Shown here in pieces: positions 5,901 through 20,000 of a stretch of DNA of 20,000 bases (the stretch's first letter is position 1; each line of letters begins with the position of its first letter). A program made the position numbers and the translations under genes. Location: assembly GCA_026770585.1 (NCBI GenBank), contig MU646824.1, forward strand, positions 36,126 through 56,125. The letters are read 5' to 3'. This stretch comes from Baffinella frigidus. Taxonomy: Eukaryota > Cryptophyceae > Cryptomonadales > Baffinellaceae. Under the pieces are notes generated by a model. It searched no databases. It worked only from the letters and a program-made list of their open reading frames with translations, and had not been told where the DNA came from.

Positions 5901-6860
5901 CATCCCGCCGGCAGGCTGTCCTCTCAGCCCGCCCGGCAGGGCCAGGGTGGGGGGTAACAGGGGGGAGGGGAAGAAAAGAACTGGAGGTTGATATGTTGCC
6001 CTAAATTGGTTACTGTCTGGGAGAGCAGAGGTCTGCAGCGAGGGGCAGTTCTCTGCAATCGAAGATCACCTGATCGAAATGATCCTCGAGTTCCTCCCCG
6101 GCCGCGCCGTGGTCTGTTCCCCTCTTCCTCGCCCCCATCCCTGGAGGACAAAACAATAGGAAACTGTAGATCCCGAAAAACCAAGACTGTAGTTCCTAAA
6201 AACTCTTGAACACGCAAGAGCGCGACAAGATGGGAAGAGGGCGAGGTCCGAGCACAGACGGCATCGCGTGCGCGGCGCAGCCTGATCCCACGCGCGGCGC
6301 GCAGGCGAGGATGGCGGGTGTGTGCACTCGCTGGCGGGAGCTGGTGATGGGCGAGGCCAACGAAGCGCACCTCTGGCGCACGCTGTACGCACGCGACTTC
6401 GAGCCCCTCGTCGAGCAGGGCCCGGCGCGCACGTTGCTCCCCCCGCGCGCGGGCGTCGCCGCACCAGGACCGGCTGCGCGCCACCGGTGCCATCCACACC
6501 CATCACCCCCTGCCCTCGTTTCTCCGCACTTTCCTCACCTCATTTTCGCCTCCCTGAGGGCGCCACACGGACTAGATCCGTCTCGGTCGATTTTCTCTCA
6601 ACAATTTGGTGAGACCGGTCCCTTTTCCGCCCCAAAATTGACGGATTTGTACCACACAACCAGCGTGTGAATCTGAGAATAGCGAGGCAACCCGAGTGAG
6701 GCAGAGGTAGGAGGTGGGTGACACGGGTGGGTGTGCGCACGGTGTTCTGGCAGGTATGGAGATGCGGCGTCGGTCGACGGTCTCGTTTGCCCGACCTGGA
6801 TCCAGGTGCGCGCCCGCCCGCTTTCTCTCTCTCTCTTCTCTCTCTGTCTTTCTGTCTGTT

Positions 6861-6904
<44 letters not shown>

Positions 6905-6921
6905 CATCCATCCATCCATCC

Positions 6922-6955
<34 letters not shown>

Positions 6956-7155
6956 ATATATATATATATATATATATCTCTCTTTCTTTCTTTCTTTCTT
7001 TCTTTCTGTCTGTCTGTCTGTCTCTATCTATCTATCTCTGTCTCTCTCTTTGTCTCTCAGTCTCTCAGTCTCTCTGTCTCTCTGTCTCTCTGTCTCTCTG
7101 TCTCTCTGTCTCTATGCCTCTCTGTCTCTCTTTCTTTCTATCTGTCTGTCTGTCG

Positions 7156-7231
<76 letters not shown>

Positions 7232-9706
7232 TTCTATCTTCCTCTCTCTCTTTCTCGCACACTGCTGGCGAGGCTCCTGCTTGTGGGAGACGGTCTCATG
7301 TGCCCGACCTGGATCCAGGTGCGCCTATCCACACAACTATGAAGGGTTTTTCTGCCCGAATCGGGCCAGCTTTCCATTTCCTTATCCGTTGGAACCCCCC
7401 CTATGTACTAACGGATTTCCTATCGTAGGGTCCTAGGTCTAATCGCGTATGGGTCATGCAAAATCCCTTCAAAGTCCGCTGTGTGGACTGGGCCGCATGG
7501 GGTGTTTTGAAGGGCATGCCGTCAAGTTTGTTGTGGTTCAGGTAAAATTTCAACATTTGCTGTAAAGATTGGTTGGCGCGCCAGTCCGCATCGAGGGGGC
7601 CCTCTCCACGCGCGTGGCATGCGGAGGGCGCGGGCGCTTAGGATGCGGAGGGGGCATCGGTTGTGTGGGATGCGGAGGGCGCATCGGTTGTAGAGAGATT
7701 GATAATTTATTGCCAAACAATCAGTGTCAGTGCCGCACATGCTACGCTTGACCACTCTGGAATTTGACCATCGGTTGTGTTTGGACGCAGTAGGAGCGTC
7801 CTAGCTCTGCCTTGGTTAATCTGGGCTCCTCATTCATACATTTAGGCGATCGCTCCGTGCAAACGCTCCAGCACAAAGAGCATCTGAATGTATTGAACGA
7901 TGCGCCCCGATGAACTGAGGCAGAGCGAGAGTACCTCGTGGCACTTGGATGCTTGGATCGCAGCGTTGACGCGCGTCGACGAGGCCTTGCCGTAAGTGGG
8001 ATCAGGCGGGAGGTAGATAGTCGTGGGAGACTACCCGGCGTCGGGTGTCGGGTGGGAGGGGGGGCAGCTCGCCCTGACGGGTGTGGGGCAGTGCCGAAGC
8101 GTCGGGTGTGGTCGTGGAGAGTGAAGGGGCGGTGGTAGTGGGGGAGAGAAACCACCGTTTATTCCGGATCGAAACGAACATTGTCATGATCTGTGGGGAT
8201 GGCAGCTGCACGCTCTGACGAGCTTGGGGTAGACAGTCGGGAGAAGGCAAGGGTGGAGAGTGAAGGGGTTGGGTTGGGTGTGTGGGGTGGAGAGTGAAGG
8301 GGTGGTGGTAGTGGGAGAGAGCAAGGTGTGTCTACTCCGGATCGACAGTAACATGGACACCATCTGTGGGGATGGCAGCTGTACGCAAAGCAGGCGCGGC
8401 AGACGGTCGGGAGCAGGCAAGGGTGCGCCGGCTGCGTCCTCCGCGGCGAACTCGTGCTGCCCCCTCCGCCCTGTTGCTTTGCGAAATCATGCTCCGTTTT
8501 ATGCACCCTCCCCTGCACCATCAGCTGACGGGGCGTGAAGGCGTTCACTTTTGGGACTCCTCTGAGTCACACAAGTCAATTGAGGATGCGTGCTACGAGG
8601 CGATCTTGTACTGCCCCCCCTCCTTCCGCCCCCAAAAATGACGCATTTGTTCTGAAACCCCAGCATGCCAACTTGAGAATAGTCTGTGCGGCCGGCTGCG
8701 TGCTCGGAGAACTCGTGCTGCCCCCGCCTCCCCCTCTAGACCCTGAACCCCAAGCCCTTCCCTGCGCACCAGACTCTCCCTCACGACGGTCGACATGCAC
8801 CAGACACCCACAACTTGTCAATCATTACAGATTGTCTCGTCACCCCCCCCCCTCCCTGTGAGGACAGAGTCCTAGGAAGGGCCTCTCCTTGCCAGAGGCG
8901 GCTTTCGGGCGTGGGTTCGCAGTCGCTATTCATGGTGTGCGACCACCAACGGTTTGTATGCAACGATGTAAATCTCTCTGATCGCCAACGGTTGTATTTA
9001 ATGATGTAACGATGTCACCATGGACGAGAGGTTGGCAACTAGCCGTACCTCGTAGTTAGGTGACCTGATGGTCGAGGTGCGCCCCGAGGCGTGCGGCTGT
9101 CATGCGCACGTCCCGCTCATGCGCACGTCCCACACGAGGTGCACTTTGCCCGTGAGTGCCAGGGGTGACGACGTAATCAATTCGACTGACTGTTGGCAGG
9201 TTGTCTACGGAGGGTGGACAAACGGATGGCAGACAATCCGCAACGACATCAACCTCCTCCACATCGTCGACCCCCCCCCCGCACCCCTCCACACTTTCCC
9301 TGCGGACGGGAAAGATTCGGAGGCTGGCGCGGCGGAGAGGACGGGGAGGGCGCACATGGACGAGGTGGGGGGGGCGGGGGGATGGGGGGGGGGGGCGGCG
9401 AAGGAGACGGCGAAAGACGTTGAGAAGAAGGAGCTCAAGTGGGAGGCAGGTGAGAGTGTGTGGGGCGCTTTAGGGTTTAGAGTTTGGGGTTGGGGGTGCG
9501 TGTGGGGGGGGTTGCGTGGCGAGGTGTAGATAAGGGAGGGGGGGGGGATACCGTACGTCGGGGGGGTCATCAGGCGCGTCTCGCGTTGAGGGTTTAGGAT
9601 TTAGGTTTTCGCGACGGCACCTCTCGCTCCTTACGCCCGTCCTCTTCGGGACACCCCTCTGACTTCCTACAAGCTCGTGGAGAGAGCGAGAGAGAGAGAG
9701 CGAGCG

Positions 9707-9750
<44 letters not shown>

Positions 9751-11098
9751 CGGTCGGCAGTGCGGGGTGCTCCTCCTCTTCATCCTCCTCTGCCTCGCTC
9801 TGCCTGAGTTTCATTCTGGCTCGTCCTTAAAATGATTTAAGAGCAGAAATTTAGTACAAAATGGCGAATAGAAAGCCTTTAGGACGAGCCAGAATAAAAC
9901 CGAGGCAGCGGTAGTCTTGCTCTGACGGTTTCCTCCGTGATTTGCAGTGCGGCTTTGACTCTAACGCTCCGACCCCTGGTCGGCAGTGAAGTGCAGCGGC
10001 TCGGCGCCGACGGCCTCATACGGCCCAACGATCACCACGGCCTCGCACCCCGAGCACGGCGACATCCTTCTTGTCTTCGGTGGCGTCCGCCACGGCGGCT
10101 ACCAGGGTATCCCCAACTAGCATATCCCTCATTCGGGTTGACTGTCAGACTGTTCTCAAGATGACATGCTGAGGTTGCGGTACACTTCCGTCGACTTTGG
10201 GGCGGGAAAGAGCCCAGGGGAAGCAGACTGGTGAGACCTAATAGACTCGCACTCCGAGCACGGCGACGTCCTTTTTGTCTTCGGCGGCGTCCGCCACGGC
10301 GGCTACCAGGGTATCTCCCAACTCCTTTCAGCCTTGCGGGTTCAGCGTCGAAGGGTGGGGGTTGAGCGGGTATGCCCACCTAGGTTATACTAGCTCTACC
10401 TCACTCGGGTTGACTCAGAGAGTCTCAAAAGACTGTTCTCAAGTTGACATGCTGGGTGTGCGGTGCGAATCCGTCAAGTTTGGAGTGGGAAAGAGCCCGG
10501 GCTCACCAGATTGGGAAAGAGTCCGGGCTCCCCAGACTCAGGGTATTATAGTCGTGCGCACATACGTTGTCCGCGGGAATCATGTGACATTGGTAAAATG
10601 TCACGGCGCTGGTGACAAAACGTCCACTTTCCTCAAGCTTCCATTATTTCAGCGGGCAACTGGTCTGCTCACCGCTCTAAGCCTGCGCATGGGATGCATC
10701 ATGATGCATCCCGTACTGAGCTACTAAGCCTGCCAAACTTGGGCCAGTACTACGCCCGCCGGTACTAAGGCTACCGGGTACTGACCCTGGGCAACCGCAG
10801 GACCGATCAACGACCTGCGCATGCTTGTGCCTGCCCCCGCGTCGTCCGACGCTGCCGACGCCCCCCCCCACCAGGTGCCCGACTATTCTCAAGTTGACAA
10901 GCTGGTTTTGCTGTACAAATCTGTCAACTTTGGAGCGGGAAAGAGCCCGGGGGGAGCGGATTGGTAAGTAGACCAATCGACGATGTGAGTATGCTGGTGC
11001 TTGCCCCCGCGTCTTTCGACGCTGCCGACGCCCCCCCCCCACCAGGTGCATTCTCTCTCACTCTCTCTCCCTGTCTCTGTCTGTCTGTCTGTCTGTCG

Positions 11099-11160
<62 letters not shown>

Positions 11161-14034: not shown

Positions 14035-14087
<53 letters not shown>

Positions 14088-17000
14088 CGTGGCTGGCGTG
14101 TCTCGGTTCACTGCTTGCAGGTCGTCATTCGGGTGTGTGGGATGTATGTGGAATTTGTGTGGGATTTGTGTGGGATGTTTGTGGGTGTCACGCTAGTCAA
14201 GTGGCTAAGTGGGGTTCTCTATTGGCCGCAGGCGGACCATCATTCGCGCTTTCCAACTCCCTCTCCGCACTCGACACCCGCGACTTCACCTGGAAAGAGG
14301 TAGCTTCGCCTCACTCGAGTTTGTTGACTATTCTCAAGTTGACATGCTGGAGTTTTGGTACAAATCTGTCAGTTTTGGAGCGGCAAAAGCCGAGTCTCGC
14401 CAATTTGGTGAGCACAAAAAGACGGGGACAAAGCTAGGGTAGAGGAACGGCTCCAATTCCCGGCCCGCCTCGAATCCTATCCACTAACCTCGCCGGACGT
14501 GACCTGACCCAAAATGTGGCCCCGCGATAGGTGAAGCAGGCGCCCGCGTCGCAGGCCCCGCCGCGCGAGCGGCACAACCCCATCTGCGTCCCCGTCTGCG
14601 GCGGCAGCGAGGTGCTGCATCATCGCTCCTCAACCCCACACCTTCACCTCTCAACTCTCAACTCTCAACCATCAACCATCGGCCGTACGCCCTAGGCCCT
14701 AAACCCTGAACCCTAAACCCTCAACCCTAAATCCTAAACCCTAAACCCTAAACTCTAAACCCTAAACTCTCAACTCTCACACCTAAGCCCTAAACCCTGA
14801 ACCATGAACCACACACCCTGAACCCTGAACCATTCACCCTAAATCCTAAACCCTAAACCCTCCACCCGCAAGGTGCTGGTGTTCGGGGGGTGGCGGGGAG
14901 AGGAGCTGGGCGACCTCTACTCCCTCAAATTCGGCACCCTCGAGGTCCGTCGAAACCCCCAAATCCTCAACCCCAATACCCAACCCATAACCCGTGAACC
15001 CAACACCTTTAACCCTCTCCTCTCTCAAATTCGGCGCTGTCGAGGTCTCTCACAACCCTCAACCCTGCAACACTCCACACTAAATCCTGCTCCATAAACT
15101 CAATCCCATGCTCTGCAGAAACTAAACCTGGACCTCTATTCTCACAAATTCGGCGCCCTCGAGGTCCTACTTTCTAAACCCTACATCCTGAACCCCAACC
15201 TCCCGAAATCTAAATCCTAAGCCCTACACCCTACACCCTAAACAGTCGACTTCCAAATCCTGAACCGAAGACCCTAGAACCTGACTCCTTCAAAATCTGC
15301 GCTCTCGAGGTCATTGAAACCCCTAAACCCTAGACCCTAGAACCCTTCACCCGAAACCTTAAACCCTAAACCCGAAAGCGTAATGCAGGAAGGGCAGCAC
15401 CCGCACGGCACGTCGCTCTCTTGCAAGCCTCCCCTCGCCGCCGCCCAACAGTCCCGCCCCACTCGACCCCACTCTACCGAACTCTACCCCCCTCTACCCT
15501 ACTCCGACTTGAACTCTCGCTCTCTCGCTCTCGCTCTTTTTGCTTTACAATGAATCTCGCTGTCAAGCAAACGCCGCCGCCGCGCAGCAGGCCTGCCCCA
15601 CTCCCTCTACGTGTCCTCTCACTCTCGCTCTCTTTCTCGCTCTGTTTGTCTCCACCACTCGAGGCTCATATTGATGGTTTGGTTTGGTTTGATCTCTCGA
15701 CTCTGACCACTCAAGGCGGACCGTGGCCTCTCAAATGTTGGTGTTTTGCTCGCGTCCAGGTTTGTACCAGAACTGGTCGCGTGGCCCACGCCTTAAGCAT
15801 GAGCAACGTGACCAATTCCCCGCACATCCCCGTCAAAAGGGTTTACGCAGCGAATTGTAGATGTGAAACAAAGGCCACGGCCCGCCTCGAGTGGCGCATG
15901 CGCCGACAGACCCTCCGCTGGAGGGTGCGTTTCCGGCGCTGAAGGCATTTCGGATTGAGGGTCTGACGGCGGGGGCCCTGGGGAGCAGGGACGACGAGGA
16001 CGACGAGGACGACGAGGATGCCGCCGACCCGCGGAATGCGCATGGGACGAGGTCTCGCGCCCCACCCACTAGGATTCACGGGTTTGGGTGTAGGGGTTTG
16101 GCCTGGTCGGGAGGAGGTGGAGGAGGAGGAAGAGGACGGCGGACGACGGACGGGGGCCTTTGCATGGGACGATGTCGCGCGCCCCACCCACCTTGTCTCA
16201 GAGAACCTATTAGTTAATGCCTCTGTGCCAACGAAAATTACTACACAAATGGATTATACTGTTGGCAGTAAAACGTTTGTGTAGTAAATTTCGTTGACAG
16301 AAAGCCATTGATTAATGCATTCTGAGGAGGAGGAGGACGACCCGCGGAATCCGCATGGGTTGAGGTCACGTGCCTCGCCCAGCATGATTCAGGTGTTTGG
16401 GTTCTGGCTTGCGGGTTCAGGGGCTTTGCCTCGTCGGAAGAAAGCTGAGGAAGAGGACGACGGTTGTGGCCATTCGCATGGGACTGAGGTCGCGTGCCCA
16501 AGACACCCTTAACCGTTTCCAACACACTCCCTGCCGTGTCAATCACACCCTCGACCGTGTCTAACACACCCTCAACCGTGTCGGTTGAGGGTGTGCTGGA
16601 CTGTGTCCAACACACCCTGTTGTCTAACACACCCTGGGGGGAGGAGGAGGACTGATGGGGAATGGAGGCGGCAACACCCACGGCAGTCTCGGCCTAGATA
16701 ACCAGATCCTTAAAACTCCTAACCCTGAGCATTTCTGAGTTCATATATATGAATATTTCATATATGAAACCGCCCCCGGAGGCGAAAAGGTCTACGTTTC
16801 GCGAAGACACGATTCATGTCTTCGTGAAACGTTGCGTTTTTCAACAAAAAGCGGCGAAATCTTGCGAAATTGACCGAACTTGTCGAAAAGAGCCCAAATT
16901 TGAATCAAATTTGAGGTCAGTCCGAAATGAAGATACGAATTCAAAAGGACGTCAACCTGTTGATATCCGGGTGCGGTATGTCTTAGTTGATATATCTGAA

Positions 17001-20000
17001 AAGTCGCTTTCCGAAAGCAGGGCGCGGATGCAGCAGCGGATGATGGCGTACCTGATGGGGAATGGCGGCGCCAACGCCAACAGCGGCCTCATGCAGAGCC
17101 TTCTCGCCCAGGTGTTCCTCCTCGTAGCTCCTCGTGGCGCAAACGTGTTTTTTTCCAGAGAGCTGCGCTAGTCACGAGGTGGTCACGAGGCGCGTGTGTC
17201 CCCATTAACCGACAGATAGCGTTCTAGAACGTTCTAGAACCGCCTCGAAGTTGGAGAGGGTGATCACGTACCTGATGGGGAATGGAGGTGGGAACGCCAA
17301 CACAGGCGTTGTGCAGAGGCTTCTTGCGCAGGTTTAGGGTTTGGGTCTAGGGTTTGGGGGTAAGTCTCATGCAGAGTCTTCTTGCTCAGATTTGCGAGGC
17401 CTTGACGAAGGGGAATACATGGTGGTCATGTTGGTTTCGACCCGTAATAAATAGACCAGGCTGTTGACAAACCCTTGTACGGCGCATAAACCTCCTTGTA
17501 TTTATTAGCTTTTCGATCCGTAACCAACACACTTTTCTCACACAGATGGGCCACGTGGTTATGTTCTCGATCTACTGATCCAAACCACCATGTATTCCCT
17601 CTTGCGAAAGCCTTGTAAGACTAGGACCCACACGACATGTCGAAATCCACGCACGCTTGTCGCAGAAATGGGGGTGCAGCCTGATGGCACGCTGCGCACA
17701 TCCGCGTCCTCAACCCTCAACCCTACCCGTCGTTTTATGGGGGCACACGAACCTCGTGACTACCTCGTGAACACCTCGTGACCACCTCGTGACCACATCC
17801 AAAGCCTCGCTAAGGTCTCGCGCCGTTGATGTCTCGCGTGGCTCAGGGCTGACGCACCTTTCTCCCTAACGGCAGATGGGGGTGCGGGTGCGGCCGGATG
17901 GCACAACAGCGTTGGCCGACGCTGATGACGACGAGGTCGCTCTCTCACTCTGGCTCCCCGAAGCATTCGCCAGGCTCGCAAATCCCTGGCCTTCTAGTTG
18001 TGGGGCTTCCGAAAACTGGGCTTCCAGTTTGAATTTGAAACTGGGCTTCCAGTTTTCAGTAGCGAAGGCGCGATAGATCGATAACGTTGGCGGTCAACGC
18101 TATCATCGTCAGCTGACGATGAGGTCGCCCCCCGAAGCATCTAGATCTATTGCAGCCATGTTTTTGAGGGGAGGAGTGTCCGTTGCAACCGATTCAGACT
18201 CACGGGAGAGAGGGGCGACGAGGTCTTTCCTCGCAAAGCTTCTGAATTGGTTGCTCCGTTGCTGTTTCTCAGCACCCCGTTCGATTTCTATCTTGGGGGG
18301 GGGGCTGTTTTCTTTACACTGGATCCATCTCTTTCTAGGACGATGACGACGAGGTCGGTCTTGCATTTGCGCTATTCAGATTGCTGTCGCCACTTTCGTG
18401 GTAAAAATAAAAAACTGAAGAGGTTTAAAAGTTTGATACCGCACGCCAAGCATTTCAAGTGGTTGCTTCATTGCGTCTCTCTGGGTGAAGGTCTCTGGGG
18501 CTTGGTGCCGCAGCCTCAAACCGTAACGGTGAAGGCCTTGCAAGACTAGGACCTAAACGGCTTGCGGCCCCGCAATAGTCGATGCCGCAGCGCCCAATGC
18601 GGGTTTAGGGTTAGGAATTGAGGGTTGAGGGTTGAGGGTTTGGGGTTTAGGGTTTAAGGGTTGAATTCCCGTCAGAGATTTGGGTTTAATCCCCCAAACC
18701 CTAAATCCTCAACCCCTAAAAACTAAAACCTTGACCCTGAACCCTAAACTCTAAATCCTAAACCCTAAACCCTACATCCTACACCCTGAACCCCAAACCT
18801 CAAACCCCAAACCCCAACTCCTCAACTCTAAGCCCTCAACCCTCAACTCTACGTCAGGACAACTCGTCAGGCGAGTTTGAGGCAATGCAGATGGCCGGCT
18901 ACTCCGGAGGTAACCCCTGAACCCGACATCCTAATGGCTATACGTCTTGAGATCGTGACTTCACTGTAAAATTCGTGAATTCCCGCCAAGGTGAGGCCCG
19001 ATCAAATGGCCCAGACGTACAGCCGCTATGTGGCCAAGTTGGTTTCGATCCGTAATATGTAAAAGAACCTAAACACAAGGGTCTCACACTCGCGCTACTG
19101 AGGTTGCTCGTTTTTTTCTCTGGCTCAGTCCGGTGTTCGGACTATTGTCAAGTTGACATGCGGTGTTCGTGGTGCAAATTCGTCGCCTTTTGGGTGGAAA
19201 CAGACCCGTTGTCACCAAATTGGTGAGACCAAACCGACTGCGACAGAGCTAGTTTTTTGTTGCCACCTGATGCTGGTTGGATGAGGCAAGCGGTGGACCG
19301 GGACTTAGTCTCTACCAACCTTGATGTTTGGCAATTTAGATGTTTGGTAACTTTAATGTATGGCAACTTTGATGTTTGACAACTTGATATTTGATTCCGC
19401 TCCATCCTCTACCTCCGTCACGCGACGAGAGCTGACACAGATCGATGTTTCGCAACATCCACGACATTGACTTTCTTTTTGACCAAAATATCGGATGAGA
19501 GTTTTCGGATGTCGTCAGTCAAGTCCTTGAGGTTTTGCGAGCTGCCACCGTTGGCGCGGACACTGGAAGTTATCGGCAGGCCCCGTTCCAAGCATGCCCA
19601 GGCGACGCGAGCGCCCTCTGAACAGTAGAGGTGCCGAGTTTGCAACTTATCCCTCAAGTGGCCAGACGGTCAAATTTGAGAGCCAAGAGGTCAAAGGCAG
19701 GTCCTAGGGCCCTACGGTAGGGCGTATGCGCCTACTCGCCGCTAAGGGATACGTGGACACTGTGGCAGGGGCAGACGACTATAACGACGAGGACGTTGAG
19801 GCGGATGAGGGCATAGATGAGGATGATGATGATGATGAGGAGGAGATGATAATGATGATGATGATGACTTATCCGTGGACACTGTGGCAGGCGCGGCTCT
19901 GGACTCTGACGACGATAACGACGACGAAGAGGACGAAGAGGACGAAGATGATGATGATGATGATGATGATGAGGAGGAGGAGGAGATGGAGGGGGATGAT
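2830..20000 (+). CDS. F-box/kelch-repeat protein, about 22 micro-exons, incomplete at right edge
   Basis: Gene-level entry; exons are listed separately. Seen: an F-box split over exons 2-3 (about residues 62-110), then about six kelch blades (about residues 150-600) recognisable by hydrophobic strand plus Gly-Gly (VVYGGW, LLVFGG, LLVMGGF, LVVIGG, ILCFAGG, VLVFGGW), upstream R..H motifs (PRAYHTATW, PCPRFGHSAS, RCHTAVVV, PPRERHNPI) and blade-closing Trp (LKWEA, FKWSAV, PLWTSP, FTWKE). An acidic tail follows. Known: F-box proteins dock to Skp1 in SCF ubiquitin ligases and a kelch propeller binds the substrate. Inferred: the same role here, target unknown. Codon phase matches at nearly every proposed GT-AG junction. 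Acceptors are mostly [CGT]GCAG. Exons are 50-250 nt and introns 48 nt to 3 kb. No stop codon is reached before the window ends. Extra exons could be missed, mainly between 6806 and 9055. Confidence 0.82.
2994..3205. repeat. TTTAGGG-type repeat at the start of intron 1
   Basis: G-strand orientation heptamers (GGGTTTAGGGT and variants) begin immediately at the exon 1 donor and continue about 200 bases. Confidence 0.85.
3206..3734. other. Intron 1 interior, no gene recognised
   Basis: Open frames occur on both strands (for example RRLYRWGGSEKYEAGK at about 3206-3300 on plus, following tttag), but none joins the flanking exons in phase. One fragment (ctggtacaaatttg near 3518-3531) weakly recalls the dispersed element. 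Confidence 0.4.
3735..4135. repeat. Foldback element with arms of about 95 bp
   Basis: 3735-3830 and the reverse complement of 4033-4130 align well (shared AATGCTTTCTCTGCAG, CCTTTCTACGGAA and GGCGTGTCGTTGG, and AAAACCT.AAGGACCTAAA), enclosing about 200 bases. The right arm lies within a minus-strand open frame (4042-4227, FVADFIGPKGRNVVNAFSAD). MITE-like or a decayed inverted duplication; no transposase seen. Confidence 0.7.
4316..4356. repeat. Short tandem ACACTTATTG repeat
   Basis: Four imperfect copies of a 10-15 base unit (ACACTTATTGAC). Confidence 0.7.
4668..4902. repeat. Foldback element with arms of about 55 bp
   Basis: GGCCGATTTTGCTTTTCTCG... at 4668-4723 pairs with the reverse complement of 4846-4902 (shared TTTTCTCGACGGTTCTG and ACGCCCTCT), spacer about 120 bases. 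The arms explain why a similar peptide (TVEKSKIG/TVEKSEIG) appears in frames on both strands. MITE-like. Confidence 0.7.
5086..5214. repeat. Foldback element of about 130 bp
   Basis: Ends are GAGTATTCATAATGAATACG and the reverse complement of CGTATTCATTGTGAATACTC. Inner arms TTTTGGTGTATCTT...AAGATACACCAAAA continue the stem, with about 15 extra bases in the right arm. Typical of a small non-autonomous inverted-repeat element. Target duplication not clear. Confidence 0.8.
5336..5463 (-). CDS. Second exon-like segment on minus strand
   Basis: Minus-strand acceptor cgtttttgcag, then ATIQVTLRSSRTDFSHSP and MDDTLFKANTFSTGG, ending at a consensus donor GGGAG|gtgagt. It does not join the 5768-5886 segment in phase (phase 2 into phase 0), so either another exon lies between or one of the two is spurious. 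Confidence 0.3.
5768..5886 (-). CDS. Exon-like segment on minus strand (inside intron 1)
   Basis: On the minus strand an acceptor ggggtttag is followed by GVFISSNSTLVWHALELEVE and RVEASACSPPP, then a donor CCGCGG|gtgagt. Length 119 nt, leaving in phase 2. Composition is protein-like but no family is recognised. The plus strand is also open here (LNFQFQSMPDQ), so strand choice rests mainly on the splice consensus. Confidence 0.3.
6039..6111 (+). CDS. Exon 2, first half of F-box
   Basis: Reads EGQFSAIEDHLIEMILEFLP then GRAV. The pattern HLIxMILEFLPGR matches helix 1 and the turn of the F-box, the Skp1-binding motif. Acceptor ctgcag ends at 6038 (phase 2). A second in-frame acceptor, ggggcag ending at 6048, would shorten the exon to start at TTC. 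Donor is taken as GCCGTG|gtctgt; GCC|gtggtc three bases earlier is equally in phase. Either joins exon 3 in phase 0. Confidence 0.7.
6305..6486 (+). CDS. Exon 3, second half of F-box and linker
   Basis: Starts after gcgcgcag and reads ARMAGVCTRWRELVMGE, then LWRTLYARDFEPLVEQG. This is the classic F-box continuation (V-C-x-R-W-R-E-L, then L-W-x-x-L-Y-x-R-D-F). A Pro/Ala/Arg-rich linker follows, to CACCG|gtgcca, phase 2. A longer version starting after the cag at 6278-6280 is in frame but would insert PDPTRGAQ into the middle of the F-box, so it is not preferred. Confidence 0.8.
6602..6700 (-). repeat. Dispersed intron element, copy 1 (reverse orientation)
   Basis: Reverse complement reads CTATTCTCAGATTCACACGC, GGTACAAATCCGTCAATTTT, GGGGCGGAAAAGGGACC and ends CTCACCAAATTG, matching the family consensus. 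It includes the TCACTCGGGTTG lead-in. Lies in intron 3. Confidence 0.8.
6754..6805 (+). CDS. Exon 4, entry strand of the kelch propeller
   Basis: Acceptor ttctggcag, phase 2 (one base completes Arg), then YGDAASVDGLVCPTWIQ and donor ATCCAG|gtgcgc in phase 0. The Trp near the end fits the closing strand that precedes the first blade. The last 30 bases and the donor reappear at 7289-7324 after about 500 bp of pyrimidine microsatellite. Confidence 0.6.
6822..7252. repeat. Large pyrimidine microsatellite (TCTG/TCTA/TTTC/TC)
   Basis: Over 400 bases of TCTG, TCCA, TCTA, TA, TTTC and TC tandem blocks, all pyrimidine-rich on the plus strand. Long frames read through it on both strands (Cys-Leu-Ser or Asp-Arg-Gln-Thr repeats) and are not genes. 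It separates exon 4 from its echo. Confidence 0.95.
7289..7324 (+). repeat. Echo of the exon 4 donor edge
   Basis: Matches 6776-6811 with a few differences (TGCCCGACCTGGATCCAG and the gtgcgc donor are intact). The encoded DGLMCPTWIQ parallels DGLVCPTWIQ. Confidence 0.85.
7325..8110. other. Intron 4 interior, no gene recognised
   Basis: Contains a roughly 30 bp tandem repeat at about 7616-7695 (GATGCGGAGGG.GCATCGGTTG, three copies). No frame shows kelch motifs, but a missed short exon cannot be excluded. Confidence 0.4.
8111..8424. repeat. Tandem duplication of about 140-175 bp in intron 4
   Basis: 8111-8251 and 8287-8424 share GAGAGTGAAGGGG.GGTGG, TCCGGATCGA, ATCTGTGGGGATGGCAGCTG and the CAGACGGTCGGGAGCAGGCAAGGG-like end (about 80% by eye). 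Confidence 0.8.
8425..8733. repeat. Direct repeat of about 40 bp flanking dispersed-element copy 2
   Basis: 8425-8464 and 8690-8733 share GCCGGCTGCGT and GAACTCGTGCTGCCCCC. Between them lies the reverse-oriented dispersed element at 8621-8682, the same duplication-flanks-element pattern seen elsewhere in this gene. Confidence 0.7.
8621..8682 (-). repeat. Dispersed intron element, copy 2 (partial, reverse)
   Basis: Reverse complement gives GACTATTCTCAAGTTGGCAT, GCTGGGG, ACAAATGCGTCATTTTTGGG, GGCGGAAGGA. The right-hand end is missing. Confidence 0.75.
8734..9055. other. Intron 4, distal part
   Basis: Pro-rich pseudo-frames and two short imperfect repeats (CCAACGGTTTGTATGCAACGATGTAA, shown only in part, near 8945 and 8982). 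No gene recognised. Confidence 0.4.
9056..9151 (+). CDS. Exon 5, kelch blade 1, first strand
   Basis: Acceptor cctcgtag immediately follows an in-frame stop and opens phase 0, joining exon 4 in phase. Reads LGDLMVEVRPEACGC, then HVPLMRTSHTRCTLP, ending at a strong donor CCC|gtgagt. RTSHTRCTLP joined to exon 6 VVYGGW makes a normal kelch strand pair. The following intron is only 48 nt. The acceptor has a weak pyrimidine tract, so the left boundary is less certain. Confidence 0.6.
9200..9449 (+). CDS. Exon 6, kelch blade 1 core with acidic/Gly insert
   Basis: Acceptor gttggcag, phase 0. Opens VVYGGWTNGWQTIRNDINLL then HIVDPPP, a clear kelch strand 2 to strand 3. An insert of about 45 residues rich in Ala, Gly, Glu and Lys follows (KDSEAGAAERTGRAHM), and KKELKWEA closes the blade. 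Donor GAGGCAG|gtgaga, phase 1. This is the largest exon found. The G-homopolymer runs in the insert are places where an assembly error could shift the frame. Confidence 0.85.
9663..9750. repeat. GA microsatellite in intron 6
   Basis: (GA)n with GAGC interruptions. Confidence 0.95.
9800..9908. repeat. Foldback element of 109 bp in intron 6
   Basis: Left arm CTGCCTGAGTTTCATTCTGG CTCGTCCT pairs with right arm AGGACGAGCCAGAATAAAAC CGAGGCAG; arms about 30 bases, AT-rich spacer about 50 bases. Size close to the foldback at 16209-16315. Confidence 0.85.
9987..10106 (+). CDS. Exon 7, kelch blade 2, strands 1-2
   Basis: Acceptor ggtcggcag, phase 1, completing Val, then KCSGSAPTASYGPTITTA, and EHGDILLVFGGVRHGGYQ. 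ILLVFGG is a textbook kelch strand. Donor taken as CCAGG|gtatcc, phase 1, which matches exon 8. A copy of the last 67 exon bases plus the donor (about 90% by eye) lies at 10244-10322. Confidence 0.85.
10150..10238 (+). repeat. Dispersed intron element, copy 3
   Basis: GTTCTCAAGATGACATGCTG, GGTACACTTCCGTCGACTTT, GGGGCGGGAAAGAGCCC, ending CTGGTGAGACC. Preceded by TCATTCGGGTTGACT. Lies between exon 7 and its echo. Confidence 0.85.
10244..10322 (+). repeat. Echo of exon 7 (79 bp with donor)
   Basis: Matches 10040-10117 with roughly ten percent differences, including the donor CCAGG|gtatc. The reading GDVLFVFGGVRHGGYQ keeps the kelch sequence. No acceptor in the right phase precedes it, so it is treated as intronic. 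Confidence 0.9.
10431..10537 (+). repeat. Dispersed intron element, copy 4
   Basis: TGTTCTCAAGTTGACATGCT, GGTGCGAATCCGTCAAGTTT, GGAGTGGGAAAGAGCCCGGG. Its right end GGGAAAGAGCCCGGGCTCAC is tandemly repeated once more (GGGAAAGAGTCCGGGCTC). Confidence 0.85.
10691..10712. repeat. Perfect 22-bp palindrome
   Basis: GGGATGCATCA followed by its exact reverse complement TGATGCATCCC, no spacer. Located in intron 7 about 90 bases before the exon 8 acceptor. Confidence 0.9.
10801..10874 (+). CDS. Exon 8, kelch blade 2, strand 3
   Basis: Acceptor gcaaccgcag, phase 1 (completes Gly), then PINDLRMLVPAPASSDAADA and PPHQ. The N-D-L-x-x-L-V pattern is kelch strand 3. Donor CACCAG|gtgccc, phase 0. The nearly identical segment at 10977-11047 has ten rather than nine C residues before the donor and a differently phased acceptor, so this first copy is the usable exon. 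Confidence 0.75.
10881..10973 (+). repeat. Dispersed intron element, copy 5
   Basis: GACTATTCTCAAGTTGACAA, GTACAAATCTGTCAACTTTG, GAGCGGGAAAGAGCCCGG, ending GGATTGGTAAGTAG, a perfect donor consensus. It starts seven bases after the exon 8 donor and is followed directly by the exon 8 echo. Confidence 0.9.
10977..11047 (+). repeat. Echo of exon 8 with frameshift
   Basis: Parallels 10803-10876; reads DDVSMLVLAPASFDAADAPP. One extra C in the C-run changes the phase of its donor, and the preceding AG would enter in a wrong phase, so it is a relic. Confidence 0.88.
11062..11160. repeat. (CTGT)n(CT)n microsatellite in intron 8
   Basis: TCTG tetramers followed by CT dimers, directly following the exon 8 echo. 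Confidence 0.95.
11222..11480 (+). repeat. Threefold repeat of the exon 9 acceptor region, unit about 100 bp
   Basis: Units begin near 11222, 11317 and 11420, each with TGACAA.GC.G.G followed 15-20 bases later by CGCAGGG and a G-rich stretch. Units 1 and 3 share GGGAAG.CAGA and GTGGAGCGGACGA. The last unit is taken as the exon. Confidence 0.8.
11445..11523 (+). CDS. Exon 9, acidic/Gly insert closing kelch blade 2 (right end uncertain)
   Basis: Acceptor ggtttcgcag, phase 0, then GPGGGGEGKTDSMSGADDDD with more Asp and EPS. The next exon needs a phase 1 donor; TCGG|gtggtt at 11523 or GGTG|gttggc at 11526 fit. However, the sequence just beyond reads GGWRWVDPRQ, which looks like the Trp strand expected here. 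The true end may therefore lie further right, and a GC donor at 11548 (CCAAG|gcaaga) is strong but out of phase. The acceptor region occurs three times (starts near 11222, 11317, 11420). Confidence 0.55.
11579..11797. repeat. CCCTAAA/CCCCAAA array ending at the exon 10 acceptor
   Basis: C-strand heptamers and hexamers (CCCCAA blocks) fill most of intron 9 and run straight into ctaatacag. Confidence 0.95.
11800..11862 (+). CDS. Exon 10, kelch blade 3, strand 1
   Basis: Acceptor ctaatacag directly follows CCCTAAA-type repeat; phase 1. Reads MGVDNGTPRAYHTATWLQAK to donor CCAAAG|gtctga, phase 1. G-T-P-R-x-x-H-T-A-T-W is diagnostic for the start of a kelch blade. Partial copy (YHTATW) at 11980-12005. 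Confidence 0.8.
11866..11980. repeat. TTTAGGG-type repeat at the start of intron 10
   Basis: G-strand heptamers (GGGTTCAGGGTT, GGGTTTAGGGTTTGGGG) follow the exon 10 donor and end at the echo of exon 10 (11980-12005). Confidence 0.9.
11980..12005 (+). repeat. Echo of exon 10 (YHTATW)
   Basis: TTACCATACTGCCACCTGGC resembles the exon segment TACCACACCGCCACCTGGCT at 11832-11851. Confidence 0.8.
12131..12201 (+). CDS. Exon 11, kelch blade 3, strands 2-3
   Basis: Acceptor gtgtgcag, phase 1, then a Gly run and RLLVMGGFSEGDPLLHLE to donor CTCGAG|gttccg, phase 0. LLVMGGF is the kelch double-Gly strand and DPLLHLE the following strand. Confidence 0.8.
12203..12515. repeat. CCCTAAA/CCCCAAA array filling intron 11
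   Basis: Nearly the whole intron is C-strand degenerate heptamer, from just after the donor to the acceptor acccccgcag. Confidence 0.92.
12521..12613 (+). CDS. Exon 12, end of kelch blade 3 and start of blade 4
   Basis: Acceptor acccccgcag after a CCCTAAA-type tract, phase 0. Reads ACEIGHGPFKWSAVDTMGTA and CPRFGHSASL to donor CTCTC|gtgcgt, phase 0: exactly 31 codons. Contains the closing Trp of one blade and the P-R-F-G-H-S-A-S opening strand of the next. Two further copies of its 3' part follow at 12676-12703 and 12781-12868. Confidence 0.85.
12614..13138. other. Intron 12
   Basis: Besides the exon 12 echoes it holds a short CCCTAAA tract (about 12873-12965) and ordinary sequence with GCTCC repeats near 13027-13060. 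No gene. Confidence 0.7.
12676..12868 (+). repeat. Two echoes of exon 12 with a hairpin between them
   Basis: 12676-12703 repeats the donor edge only (CCACTCCGCCTCTCTCGTGC). 12781-12868 repeats almost the whole exon and reads EWTPVTAIGTPPCPRFGH. Between them, 12736-12786 is a stem with arms GGTCTCCTCGTTTTG and CAAAACGAGGGGACC. The large echo can be entered only in phase 2 whereas exon 11 leaves in phase 0, so simple exon swapping would break the frame. Confidence 0.88.
13139..13259 (+). CDS. Exon 13, kelch blade 4, strands 2-3
   Basis: Acceptor ggagacag, phase 0. Reads VGPDASRLVVIGGCTGGHNH, a loop, then HELRDVHILTLAP to donor CCCCAG|gttt, phase 1. RLVVIGGCTGG and LRDVHILTL are unmistakable kelch strands. 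The opposite strand carries the longest uninterrupted frame in the window (12935-13846), which is regarded as a shadow. Confidence 0.88.
13436..13494 (+). repeat. Upstream echo of exon 14 start
   Basis: TTCCCCCGCACGGAGCCGTC at 13457-13476 matches GTTCCCCCGCGCGGCGCCGT in the exon (about 13588), with similar flanks. Decayed, with no usable frame. Confidence 0.7.
13550..13660 (+). CDS. Exon 14, end of kelch blade 4 and start of blade 5
   Basis: Acceptor ccccggcag, phase 1. Reads GEDPLWTSPMMQGVPPRGAV, ARCHTAVVVGGNILCFA, to donor TTCGCCG|gtgagg, phase 1. Closing Trp, PPRxxxxRCHTAVVV and GGNILCFAG are all kelch hallmarks. Degraded copies of its start (13436-13494) and its end (13771-13820) flank it on both sides. 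Confidence 0.88.
13661..14231. other. Intron 14
   Basis: Begins with TTTAGGG-like variants (gtgaggttcagggttggg), holds the exon 14 echo, a second G-strand heptamer tract at about 13843-13938, then a (GT)n microsatellite at about 14018-14087 and GTGTGGGATxTGTGT repeats to about 14185. Confidence 0.8.
13771..13820 (+). repeat. Downstream echo of exon 14 end with donor
   Basis: CTGCCATACGGCGGTTGTCG and CAACATCCTCTGCGTCGCCG then gtgcgc, matching 13614-13665. Reads CHTAVVVVGNILCVAG, so the kelch peptide is preserved. Confidence 0.9.
14232..14299 (+). CDS. Exon 15, kelch blade 5, strands 3-4
   Basis: Acceptor tggccgcag, phase 1, completing the Gly-Gly of blade 5, then GPSFALSNSLSALDTRDFTW and KE. 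SLSALDTRDFTWKE fits strand 3 (hydrophobic-L-D) and the closing Trp. Donor AAAGAG|gtagct, phase 0. The downstream intron carries a dispersed-element copy at 14326-14412. Confidence 0.8.
14326..14412 (+). repeat. Dispersed intron element, copy 6
   Basis: GACTATTCTCAAGTTGACAT, GGTACAAATCTGTCAGTTTT, GGAGCGGCAAAAGCC, ending CCAATTTGGTGAGC. TCACTCGAGTTTG lead-in begins 25 nt after the exon 15 donor. Confidence 0.9.
14540..14611 (+). CDS. Exon 16, kelch blade 6, strand 1
   Basis: Acceptor gtgaagcag, phase 0, 24 codons: APASQAPPRERHNPICVPVC then GGSE, donor AGCGAG|gtgctg, phase 0. P-P-R-E-R-H is the blade-opening motif and VCGGSE precedes the next strand. Confidence 0.85.
14643..14868. repeat. CCCTAAA-type array in intron 16
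   Basis: C-strand heptamers and CTCAA variants up to the exon 17 acceptor. Confidence 0.92.
14873..14944 (+). CDS. Exon 17, kelch blade 6, strands 2-3
   Basis: Acceptor cacccgcaag after CCCTAAA-type repeats, phase 0, exactly 24 codons: VLVFGGWRGEELGDLYSLKF then GTLE. Donor CTCGAG|gtccgt, phase 0. Very clear kelch. The donor-side edge is repeated three more times at 15019-15047, 15131-15166 and 15281-15312. Confidence 0.88.
14945..15385. repeat. CCCTAAA-type array with three echoes of the exon 17 donor edge
   Basis: Echoes at 15019-15047, 15131-15166 and 15281-15312 each end TCGAGGTC and are about 105-150 bases apart, with heptamer sequence filling the gaps. The exon itself (14912-14947) is the first of four. 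Confidence 0.9.
15386..15923. other. Rest of intron 17
   Basis: CT-rich and CTCTACCC-like short repeats (15455-15540), then ordinary sequence. A frame at 15421-15942 is open but Ser/Arg/Pro-rich without motifs. A missed exon carrying the blade-closing Trp could be here. Confidence 0.4.
15924..16051 (+). CDS. Exon 18, end of propeller and start of acidic tail
   Basis: Proposed acceptor ccgctggag (non-canonical context, phase 0), then GAFPALKAFRIEGLTAGALG, an Asp/Glu run, and AADPRNAHGT to donor ACGAG|gtctcg, phase 2, matching exon 19. A longer start after gccgacag (15909) is possible only if the previous exon were in another phase. The donor edge recurs at 16160-16190, 16344-16372 and 16473-16500. 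Something may be missing between exons 17 and 18, since no clear closing Trp is seen. Confidence 0.55.
16026..16508 (+). repeat. Fourfold echo of exon 18 donor edge in a nested duplication
   Basis: GCGCATGGGACGAGGTCTCG (exon) recurs as TTTGCATGGGACGATGTCGC, TCCGCATGGGTTGAGGTCAC and TTCGCATGGGACTGAGGTCG. Copies 1 and 3 also share the next roughly 100 bases (GATTCA.GGTTTGGGT and a GAGGA-rich end), as do 2 and 4 in part. The pair has therefore been duplicated as a unit with a foldback (16209-16315) between. Confidence 0.85.
16209..16315. repeat. Foldback element of about 107 bp
   Basis: Arms ATTAGTTAATGCCTCTGTGC CAACGAAAATTACTACACAA A and the complementary right arm (TTTGTGTAGTAAATTTCGTTG... 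to TTAATGCAT), with a short AT-rich loop containing CTGTTGGCAG. Strongly MITE-like. Confidence 0.88.
16505..16635. repeat. Minisatellite, about 20-21 bp unit
   Basis: Five to six imperfect copies of TCTAACACACCCTCAACCGTG, one inverted (GGTTGAGGGTGTGCTGGAC). On the minus strand it reads as repeated DTVEGVLDTVEGVIDT. Confidence 0.85.
16741..16840. repeat. Two hairpins upstream of exon 19
   Basis: TTCATATATATGAA with TTCATATATGAA at 16740-16768, then GTTTCGCGAAGACA...TGTCTTCGTGAAAC at about 16795-16830 (a 14-base stem with one mismatch and a loop of about 8). Confidence 0.8.
17021..17111 (+). CDS. Exon 19, Met/Asn/Gly-rich helix
   Basis: Acceptor ccgaaagcag, phase 2, then ARMQQRMMAYLMGNGG and ANANSGLMQSLLAQ, donor GCCCAG|gtgttc, phase 0. 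Not part of the kelch fold; probably a helix-loop-helix in the tail, function unknown. The frame is open upstream through an AT-richer stretch as far as an ATG at 16749, so intron retention would still be translatable. Related copies at 16650-16692, 17254-17335 and 17366-17389. Confidence 0.7.
17221..17240. promoter_or_regulatory. Perfect heat-shock-element-like sequence
   Basis: GTTCTAGAACGTTCTAGAAC contains four alternating TTC/GAA blocks in exact nTTCnnGAAn spacing, the canonical binding site of heat shock factor trimers in eukaryotes. It lies in intron 19, 110 bases after exon 19. Whether it acts as an enhancer or is just a tandem palindrome is unknown. Confidence 0.5.
17254..17389 (+). 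repeat. Two downstream echoes of exon 19
   Basis: 17254-17335 reads ITYLMGNGGGNANTGVVQRL and ends in GCGCAG|gtttag, closely matching the exon. 17366-17389 repeats only TCATGCAGAGTCTTCTTGCT CAG. An upstream partial copy (GATGGGGAATGGAGGCGGCA) is at 16650-16692. Confidence 0.9.
17399..17615. repeat. Nested foldback in intron 19
   Basis: Outer arms GGGGAATACATGGTGGT (about 17410-17426) and ACCACCATGTATTCCC (about 17585-17600). Inner arms GTTGGTTTCGACCCGTAATA (17430-17449) and the reverse-complementary TATTTATTAGCTTTTCGATC CGTAACCAAC (17499-17529). GTTGGTTTCGATCCGTAAT occurs again at about 19038. Confidence 0.75.
17616..17875. other. Rest of intron 19
   Basis: Holds an upstream echo of exon 20 (17656-17705, cgcagAAATGGGGGTGCAGC) and short direct repeats CCTCGTGACCA near 17753-17792. 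GCCTTGYAAGACTAGGACC occurs at 17609 and again at 18534. Confidence 0.7.
17876..17935 (+). CDS. Exon 20, tail segment
   Basis: Good acceptor (ctccctaacggcag), phase 0, exactly 20 codons: MGVRVRPDGTTALADADDDE, donor GACGAG|gtcgct, phase 0. Assigned to the tail by phase and acidic character. An upstream look-alike at 17656-17705 (reading MGVQPDGTL) and three downstream echoes of the donor side accompany it. Confidence 0.65.
17936..18857. other. Intron 20 with echoes of the exon 20 donor edge
   Basis: GATGACGACGAGGTCG of the exon (17922-17939) recurs at 18112-18125 (GACGATGAGGTCGC), 18205-18217 (GGGCGACGAGGTC) and 18339-18356 (GACGATGACGACGAGGTCGG). It also contains a duplicated AACTGGGCTTCCAGTTT (18014-18056), a palindromic ATCGTCAGCTGACGAT (18105-18120) and mixed-orientation telomere-like repeat at 18600-18850. 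Confidence 0.8.
18600..18850. repeat. Telomere-type repeat that switches strand
   Basis: TTTAGGG-strand variants at 18602-18665 are followed by CCCTAAA-strand variants at 18690-18845, head to head around a short unique segment. Confidence 0.88.
18858..18909 (+). CDS. Exon 21, tail segment
   Basis: Acceptor tctacgtcag after CCCTAAA-type repeats, phase 0. Reads DNSSGEFEAMQMAGYSG to donor CCGGAG|gtaacc, phase 1. Short and acidic; joins exon 20 (ADADDDE) and exon 22 in phase. Confidence 0.65.
19140..19230 (+). repeat. Dispersed intron element, copy 7
   Basis: GACTATTGTCAAGTTGACAT, GGTGCAAATTCGTC, TTTTGGGTGGAAACAGACCC, ending in the full palindrome TCACCAAATTGGTGAGACC. Lies in intron 21. Confidence 0.88.
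19319..19395. repeat. Tandem repeat, about 16-18 bp unit
   Basis: Five imperfect copies of GATGTTTGGCAACTTT. Confidence 0.85.
19418..19657 (-). CDS. Possible antisense coding segment inside intron 21
   Basis: An open frame of about 79 codons ends at a TGA and has natural-looking composition (YCSEGARVAWACLERGLP, NLKDLTDDIRKLSSDIL, VKKKVNVVDVAKHRSV), with a probable amphipathic helix in the middle. No in-frame ATG starts it (the frame begins at TTG), so if real it is a last exon or a fragment with an upstream acceptor. No family recognised. It lies opposite an intron of the F-box/kelch gene. Confidence 0.35.
   Translation of the reverse strand: MRDKLQTRHLYCSEGARVAWACLERGLPITSSVRANGGSSQNLKDLTDDIRKLSSDILVKKKVNVVDVAKHRSVSALVA
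19752..19910 (+). repeat. Duplicated exon 22 acceptor with polyacidic GAT/GAG/GAC tracts
   Basis: CGTGGACACTGTGGCAG occurs at about 19752-19768 and 19874-19890; each is followed by an acidic GAC/GAG-rich stretch (CGACGACTATAACGACGAG-like and GACGACGATAACGACGACG). (GAT)n/(GAG)n tracts lie between. Confidence 0.88.
19891..20000 (+). CDS. Exon 22, polyacidic tail, runs off the window
   Basis: Acceptor cactgtggcag, phase 1, then GAALDSDDDNDDEEDEEDED followed by a longer Asp/Glu run to the right edge. An earlier acceptor with the same 12-base context ends at 19768 and also opens an acidic frame in the same phase (GADDYNDEDVEADEGIDED), so alternative 3' splice use is possible. No stop is reached in the window. 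Confidence 0.65.

Follow-up and report, generated by a model that had tools for sequence, protein, structure and literature searches.

How did the introns of a single protein-coding gene come to hold degenerate copies of the exon ends beside them? The question is raised by the window analysed here, a stretch of 20,000 nucleotides from Baffinella frigidus, a cryptophyte alga that is apparently Arctic (GenBank assembly GCA_026770585.1, contig MU646824.1, positions 36,126 to 56,125 of the forward strand), for which a preliminary description, made from the letters alone, had reported such copies (hereafter, echoes) next to many exons, and had ascribed them to repeated insertion or repair events. 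The gene in question encodes an F-box/Kelch protein, and our exon model follows the predicted protein P0001 (714 residues), which is resolved by exact spliced alignment into 21 exons with GT-AG introns; 680 of the 714 residues lie inside the window and the remainder beyond it. The nearest of six related proteins to carry an organism's name is 36% identical and belongs to Guillardia theta. The first half of the F-box, at approximately 6050-6110, precedes the start of P0001 and was joined by eye, and the F-box-like value in Table 1 rests on that join. The sole basis for exon 16 is the P0001 prediction, whereas for exon 18 we used our own judgement in taking the donor at 17111 instead of at 17123, its position in P0001 (12 bases downstream), because the former gives CAG/gt and agrees with the echo; the edge tests (with the hand mask and the automatic mask), the echo alignments, the count of splice-site pairs and the identity profile all depend on this choice. 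Two inverted repeats lie 5' of the gene, at 3765-4096 and 4650-4916, with arms of 65 and 66 bp that are 88% and 80% identical, respectively; these are probably other fold-back elements. Rfam gave no match in the window.

The echoes are real. A masked self-comparison recovers the copies, and each donor edge was additionally used as a query (no more than 60 nt of exon, followed by 15 nt of intron) against its own downstream intron, with 300 dinucleotide shuffles of that intron as the control: 12 of 20 donor edges beat the shuffles with p ≤ 0.0066 (exons 2, 3, 5, 6, 8, 10, 12, 15, 16, 17, 18 and 19), and all 12 outscore each of 18 non-adjacent introns. At the acceptors, five of 20 edges reach p = 0.0033 (exons 3, 7, 12, 18 and 21), with exon 19 at p = 0.013. 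Masking left almost no testable sequence at donors 9 and 14 and acceptor 10, and little at a few others. Under the automatic mask, the window gene is positive at 11 of 17 donors (that of exon 16 being lost) and 6 of 17 acceptors, and in the inverted orientation at none of 34 edges. The preliminary description had allowed that the similarity might be no greater than that between random intron segments, which the shuffle and non-adjacent-intron controls contradict. Its exon numbering seems to run two ahead of ours; its exon 22 would then be our exon 20, which is negative, although positives are found on either side, at 19 and 21. Echoes also accompany exons 3 and 21 of our numbering (Table 1). 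Chance similarity, low complexity or a fault in the assembly could be suspected from the fact that part of the exon 17, 19 and 21 echoes sits in repetitive acidic codons; such an origin is, however, refuted for those edges that pass both controls, the divergence of the copies speaks against an assembly duplicate, and overall we give it virtually no credence.

Table 1. Features of the F-box/Kelch gene, its echoes and associated MITE copies (window coordinates; exon numbers are those of this analysis)
Feature	Position	Strand	Evidence or remark
F-box/Kelch gene, 21 exons per P0001	6230-20000	+	Continues beyond window end; Pfam F-box-like 9.2e-07 (join by eye, see text), Kelch_KLHDC2 1.2e-25
Exon 2 donor edge, exon end 6805	6776-6811	+	94% identical to its echo
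Echo, exon 2 donor edge, past TCTG-type microsatellite	7289-7324	+	Self-comparison, shuffle test, alignment
Upstream echo, exon 3 acceptor edge (exon 8379-8453)	8167-8255	+	Within larger duplication 8101-8255/8273-8425
Echo, exon 3 donor edge	8686-8732	+	84%
Exon 5 donor edge, exon end 10106	10042-10146	+	Final ~30 bases overlap MITE copy, may be chance match
MITE copy between exon 5 and echo, right end short by ~13 nt	10117-10247	+	Alignment
Echo, exon 5 donor edge	10246-10349	+	84%
Exon 6 plus 4 nt of intron	10801-10878	+	Alignment
MITE piece between exon 6 and echo, both ends incomplete	10879-10970	+	MITE alignment spills into exon 6 and into echo
Echo, entire exon 6 with donor	10971-11049	+	86%
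Two upstream echoes, exon 7 acceptor edge (exon start 11445)	11219-11377: 11219-11298, 11312-11377	+	Alignment
Echo, exon 8 donor edge, past G-rich telomere-like array	11982-12013	+	Shuffle test, alignment
Echo, exon 10 donor edge (exon 12521-12613)	12777-12867	+	Self-comparison, shuffle test, alignment
Weaker second echo, exon 10 donor edge	12662-12720	+	Alignment, no significance value
Upstream echo, exon 12 interior (exon 13550-13660)	13424-13487	+	Shuffle test, alignment
Echo, exon 12 donor edge	13770-13820	+	92%; to 13841 at 81% in longer alignment
Near-complete MITE, begins at exon 13 donor, without long flanking repeat	14300-14437	+	Alignment
Exon 15 donor edge (exon end 14944), echo 1, cut at donor	15014-15046	+	Alignment, no significance value
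Exon 15 donor edge, echo 2	15131-15165	+	Self-comparison, shuffle test, alignment
Exon 15 donor edge, echo 3, cut at donor	15279-15311	+	Alignment, no significance value
Echo, exon 16 donor edge (exon end 15450)	15556-15603	+	Shuffle test; drops out under automatic mask
Exon 17 (15989-16051), echo 1	16102-16191	+	Self-comparison, shuffle test, alignment
Exon 17, echoes 2 and 3	16324-16507: 16324-16400, 16447-16506	+	Self-comparison, alignment
Upstream echo, exon 18 interior	16640-16690	+	Shuffle test, alignment
Exon 18 (17021-17111, chosen donor), downstream echo 1	17255-17333	+	Self-comparison, shuffle test, alignment
Exon 18, short downstream echo 2	17366-17389	+	Alignment, no significance value
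Upstream echo, exon 19 (17876-17935)	17669-17690	+	p = 0.013
Exon 19 donor edge, three short echoes, repetitive codons	18114-18373: 18114-18128, 18216-18232, 18342-18373	+	Significance test on 18342-18373 only
Upstream echo, exon 21 acceptor edge (exon start 19891)	19749-19845	+	Partly GAC/GAT repeat

Exon-edge copies are also present in other genes of the same genome (the assembly searched comprises 382 Mb in 1,364 contigs), and echoes were found in all three of the genes looked at. The second, in an arbitrarily picked stretch of the assembly (L020, on contig C645), encodes myo-inositol-1-phosphate synthase (Pfam, 4.5e-131). All 521 aligned residues read from its exons are identical to a B. 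frigidus database protein, a nine-residue gap representing an overlooked short exon; minus its first 8 residues, the database protein corresponds exactly to 20 exons with GT-AG introns, each exon being used once. The source list for this protein includes MMETSP, a transcriptome collection. By the shuffle test, the synthase gene has echoes at 5 of 15 testable donors, of which donor 10 is a weak positive (score 15 against a shuffle maximum of 15), and at 2 of 15 testable acceptors. In the third gene, a chaperonin found with PF00118 and covered in part, the one exon tested has two upstream copies of its acceptor edge (87% and 75% identical; p = 0.002 for the better). A chaperonin match at G000:C1202:9689-9916, falls in a 446-residue open frame and is perhaps bacterial or organellar DNA in the assembly.

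Under one automatic mask, the window gene and the synthase gene together provide 64 testable splice-site edges; at p ≤ 0.01, the neighbouring intron contains a direct copy for 24 of them and an inverted copy for 1. The corresponding counts for the intron on the opposite side of the exon are 11 of 60 and 0 of 60; we read the former as stemming largely from short exons, which put the same echo in both queries.

The echoes are for the most part incomplete. At the donors, they keep from fewer than 10 to nearly 90 terminal exon bases, and the GT is retained in 21 of 23; exons 6 and 17 have echoes that extend over their full length and all others are partial, echo acceptors having been judged by eye. 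The copies are not adjacent: an echo lies approximately 15 to 480 bases from its exon, often across repeat DNA, and in both genes the donor echoes stop some 60 or more bases short of the next exon. For 23 donor echoes, chosen by eye from the window-gene alignments and the second gene, the ungapped identity on the exon side is 0.82 at -15 to -4 and 0.94 at -3 to -1, and on the intron side 0.96 at +1 to +2, 0.63 at +3 to +6, 0.46 at +7 to +10 and 0.33 at +16 to +25. Among the 13 that are at least 85% identical over the last 20 exon bases, three still have an identity of at least 0.6 at +16 to +25, and gapped alignments take several echoes to +20 or further, partly via shared base composition. 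The drop in similarity close to the donor is suggestive, rather than proven.

The decay of the echoes is non-coding. Over 27 exon-echo alignments, the differences at codon positions 1, 2 and 3 number 60 of 391, 39 of 388 and 79 of 390, respectively, the nonsynonymous to synonymous ratio is 0.51 and there are 17 gap openings; this matches the expectation for one constrained and one free copy, and a peptide-like reading is normal for a young pseudo-copy. Were the echoes alternative or mutually exclusive exons, or conserved splicing decoys, the retained GT and an identity of 0.94 to 0.96 at -3 to +2, even where the remainder is lower, would be explained; nevertheless, alignments end on matches, which inflates the identity at the edge, and both the pattern of decay and the gaps are those of a free copy. 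Moreover, the appearance of echoes as regular exons in cDNA, envisaged in the preliminary description, is not borne out for the synthase, whose database protein contains each exon a single time. We thus consider a role in splicing improbable.

That repeat DNA often separates the copies, as originally described, holds good: the spacers contain a TCTG microsatellite (exon 2), telomere-like DNA (exons 8, 12 and 15, and exon 6 in the synthase gene) and pieces of a MITE (exons 5 and 6, and L020 1347-1461). The MITE family is approximately 138 bp long, with terminal inverted repeats that start CTAGCTCTG, and has a decayed target duplication of approximately 5 bp (17 of 37 copies show two matching bases, versus 8% at random). 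Besides 14300-14437, it occurs at six further places in the window; a first look at the genome gave 447 candidate places, of which 40 were scored, and 20 of 59 copies are not near full length. A 20-base core of the element has no match in viral or prokaryote contigs. Our reading of L020 1116-1572 is that a MITE separates two acceptor-edge copies, the older of which contains another kind of fold-back element, and that the events there can accordingly be placed in time order.

A MITE separates exon from echo at exons 5 and 6, as it does at L020 1347-1461, and another copy begins at the exon 13 donor; these observations raise the idea of an introner-like element that makes long target duplications, the echoes being those duplications. 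We tried this candidate, suggested by exons 5 and 6 and L020 1345, and rejected it: 36 of the 37 near-full copies with readable flanks have no long direct repeats abutting both ends, the one that does (L029) lying within a tandem array, and a decayed duplication of approximately 5 bp is seen instead. All three copies that lie between an exon and its echo are incomplete and hence fall outside this set of 37. The MITE appears to make a short target duplication only, and therefore insertion alone does not account for the echoes; additionally, many echo spacers contain no MITE. This explanation is largely refuted, and we rate it as very improbable. The MITE itself resembles introners (PMC9860276): it is short and dispersed, has inverted ends, carries a short target duplication and is found in introns. 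It differs in that the donor-starting copy stops 93 bases ahead of the acceptor, such that the boundaries of element and intron do not coincide there, and in that the element does not explain the echoes. The strings 'cryptophy', 'Guillardia' and 'Baffinella' do not occur in the main text of that paper.

Of 140,346 readable bases, 6.2% belong to telomere-like arrays. Within the introns of the window gene and L020, 17 of 20 such arrays are C-rich on the sense strand, a bias that may mark the direction of transcription. Healing of break ends by telomere addition, a candidate that predicts G-rich before C-rich arrays, was dropped, as the order was 5 versus 4.

In tandem exon duplication, copies of exon sequence come to lie beside the exon. 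The echoes could have arisen by such ordinary duplication, or by replication slippage, without filler, the transposons, microsatellites and telomere-like arrays having entered the spacers later. Their direct orientation is compatible with slippage, those of exons 6 and 17 span the whole exon, and L029 provides an example of a MITE within a tandem array. Tandem exon duplication, however, involves a whole exon with both splice sites, whereas the echoes are mostly partial and decay without coding constraint. Moreover, at exons 5 and 6 and L020 1274-1551, the spacer consists almost exactly of an incomplete MITE, which is unexpected for later random insertion. A variant in which the exon 5 edge was duplicated in tandem together with its MITE was dropped: the two MITE copies near exon 5 are 74% identical to each other and 80% identical to the exon 6 copy and, being no closer mutually than to this third copy, were probably not duplicated with the exon. 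Overall, we regard ordinary tandem duplication as possible, though rather unlikely.

Local direct pairs in the window gene are concentrated at splice sites: 14 of the 17 touch one, against 6.3 expected (the maximum of 1000 null draws being 13; p = 0.001), although the 14 include one pairing of MITE copies that qualifies via a 3-base margin; the remaining three are two MITE pairs and an exon-interior echo. In the synthase gene, the figures are 7 of 11 against 4.7 expected, which is not significant (p = 0.13), with one of the seven being a MITE-MITE alignment. Part of the excess is to be expected: since one copy is conserved, an exon-intron pair should stay recognisable approximately twice as long as an intron-intron pair. 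The fall in identity from 0.96 to 0.46 by +7 to +10 lies nearer the donor than a plain survival filter suggests, and so speaks against the repair reading set out below, although several echoes extend to +20 or further in gapped alignments. Duplication might instead be anchored to the splice sites, with breaks or template switches favouring the few bases around the donor, via transcription, R-loops or splicing, and introns growing by repeated copying of exon ends; we hold this to be doubtful.

We favour the view, with a probability of roughly 0.55, that error-prone DNA repair generated short duplications, of which the echoes are the fossils. What is observed is a set of copies in direct orientation, placed at exon edges and decaying without coding constraint, together with the presence of echoes in three genes. 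The repair, the uptake of filler and their sequence in time are proposed as follows. A staggered break would be filled in and rejoined, giving a direct duplication of tens of bases up to approximately 150, and extra DNA (MITE pieces, telomere-like repeats or microsatellite) would be captured, or would grow, between the copies. Within an exon, such a duplication would disrupt the gene, whereas one that spans an exon-intron edge would be tolerated, provided that one copy holds the exon and the splice site together. The intron would thereby lengthen, and the spare copy would decay as neutral DNA. We infer that repair provides the best fit because the copies are direct. For direct copies with foreign filler, error-prone repair at staggered breaks would be a better match than strand-annealing capture, a process that is able to give inverted copies too, as in an example in PMC2671141; the two orientations, as noted above, are very unequally represented. 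MITE pieces between the copies would fit the role of filler; incomplete MITE copies are common (20 of 59), and their truncation is therefore weak evidence for capture. Also on the opposing side, no fresh duplication junction was seen among the echoes, most of which are too diverged, and the splice-site excess in the synthase gene falls short of significance. The preliminary description is upheld in part: the similarity is above chance, the copies are located at edges and often have intervening repeat DNA, and other genes, which it proposed to scan, bear echoes too. Insertion or repair as their cause is a candidate explanation: simple insertion of an element does not account for the copies, as the MITE appears to make a short target duplication only, and the repair component is our deduction.

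Processes of this kind are known. In the experiments of PMC8355091, on cells of mouse and human, staggered breaks gave rise to direct tandem duplications that are tens of bases long, and that paper cites Vaughn and Bennetzen 2014 for rice; the echoes are likewise direct and tens of bases long, whereas the copies in that study are in tandem and ours are spaced apart. In vertebrates, Pace et al. 2009 (PMC2671141) report repair-mediated duplications and short local 'doublets', the exon copies that were tested being without constraint. As with the echoes, these are short linked copies, some of exons or splice sites, in introns of the same gene, and our pairs also consist of two near copies above chance, one of them free of coding constraint. 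The density differs: Table 2 of that paper, covering 824 human events, lists four partial exon/intron, two full exon and two intron/exon/intron donors, and one exon copy that the paper describes is inverted, as against direct copies at 24 of 64 edges, and inverted copies at 1 of 64, in the present study. Intron gain by tandem duplication has also been described (PMC2891723). The model in that paper shares with ours a duplication across the exon-intron boundary or of adjoining exon sequence; in it, the intron is new and the echo would be beside the splice site, whereas our donor echoes end well short of the next exon, in an intron that we presume to be older. We found no earlier report, among open-licence full texts, of exon-edge copies at such density.

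Local direct duplications are also found elsewhere in the genome. At 34 loci outside the window, L020 included, there are 165 local direct pairs versus 27 inverted pairs in 100,790 unmasked bases, counting several pairs per repeat family (the direct pairs form 96 families, of which 73 are two-copy). At least one local direct pair is present at 29 of the 34 loci, and the direct pairs have a median length of 57, identity of 84% and spacing of 195. These counts are not restricted to exons: 29 of the 34 loci were picked for containing the MITE, and L020 is the one with a gene model. On this basis, the genome makes local direct duplications generally, and exon edges are the best kept and perhaps the commonest of their sites. 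L003 3252-6439 contains six or more copies of a further dispersed repeat family, in either orientation, over approximately 3 kb. According to PMC9756366, the genome of Baffinella sp. CCMP2293 is 6.1 times that of Guillardia theta, with an assembly of 534.5 Mb; the word 'intron' is absent from its main text.

Intron growth is seldom visible; here, traces of the events are found at more than one-third of the testable splice-site edges of two genes. As the exon is conserved, a copy of its edge should stay recognisable longer than a duplication internal to an intron, and exon edges would therefore serve as a record of mutational events whose traces soon vanish elsewhere. The echoes also constitute natural pairs of used and unused donors of similar sequence, which makes them useful for the study of spliceosome choice, and they show one way in which introns may swell over time.
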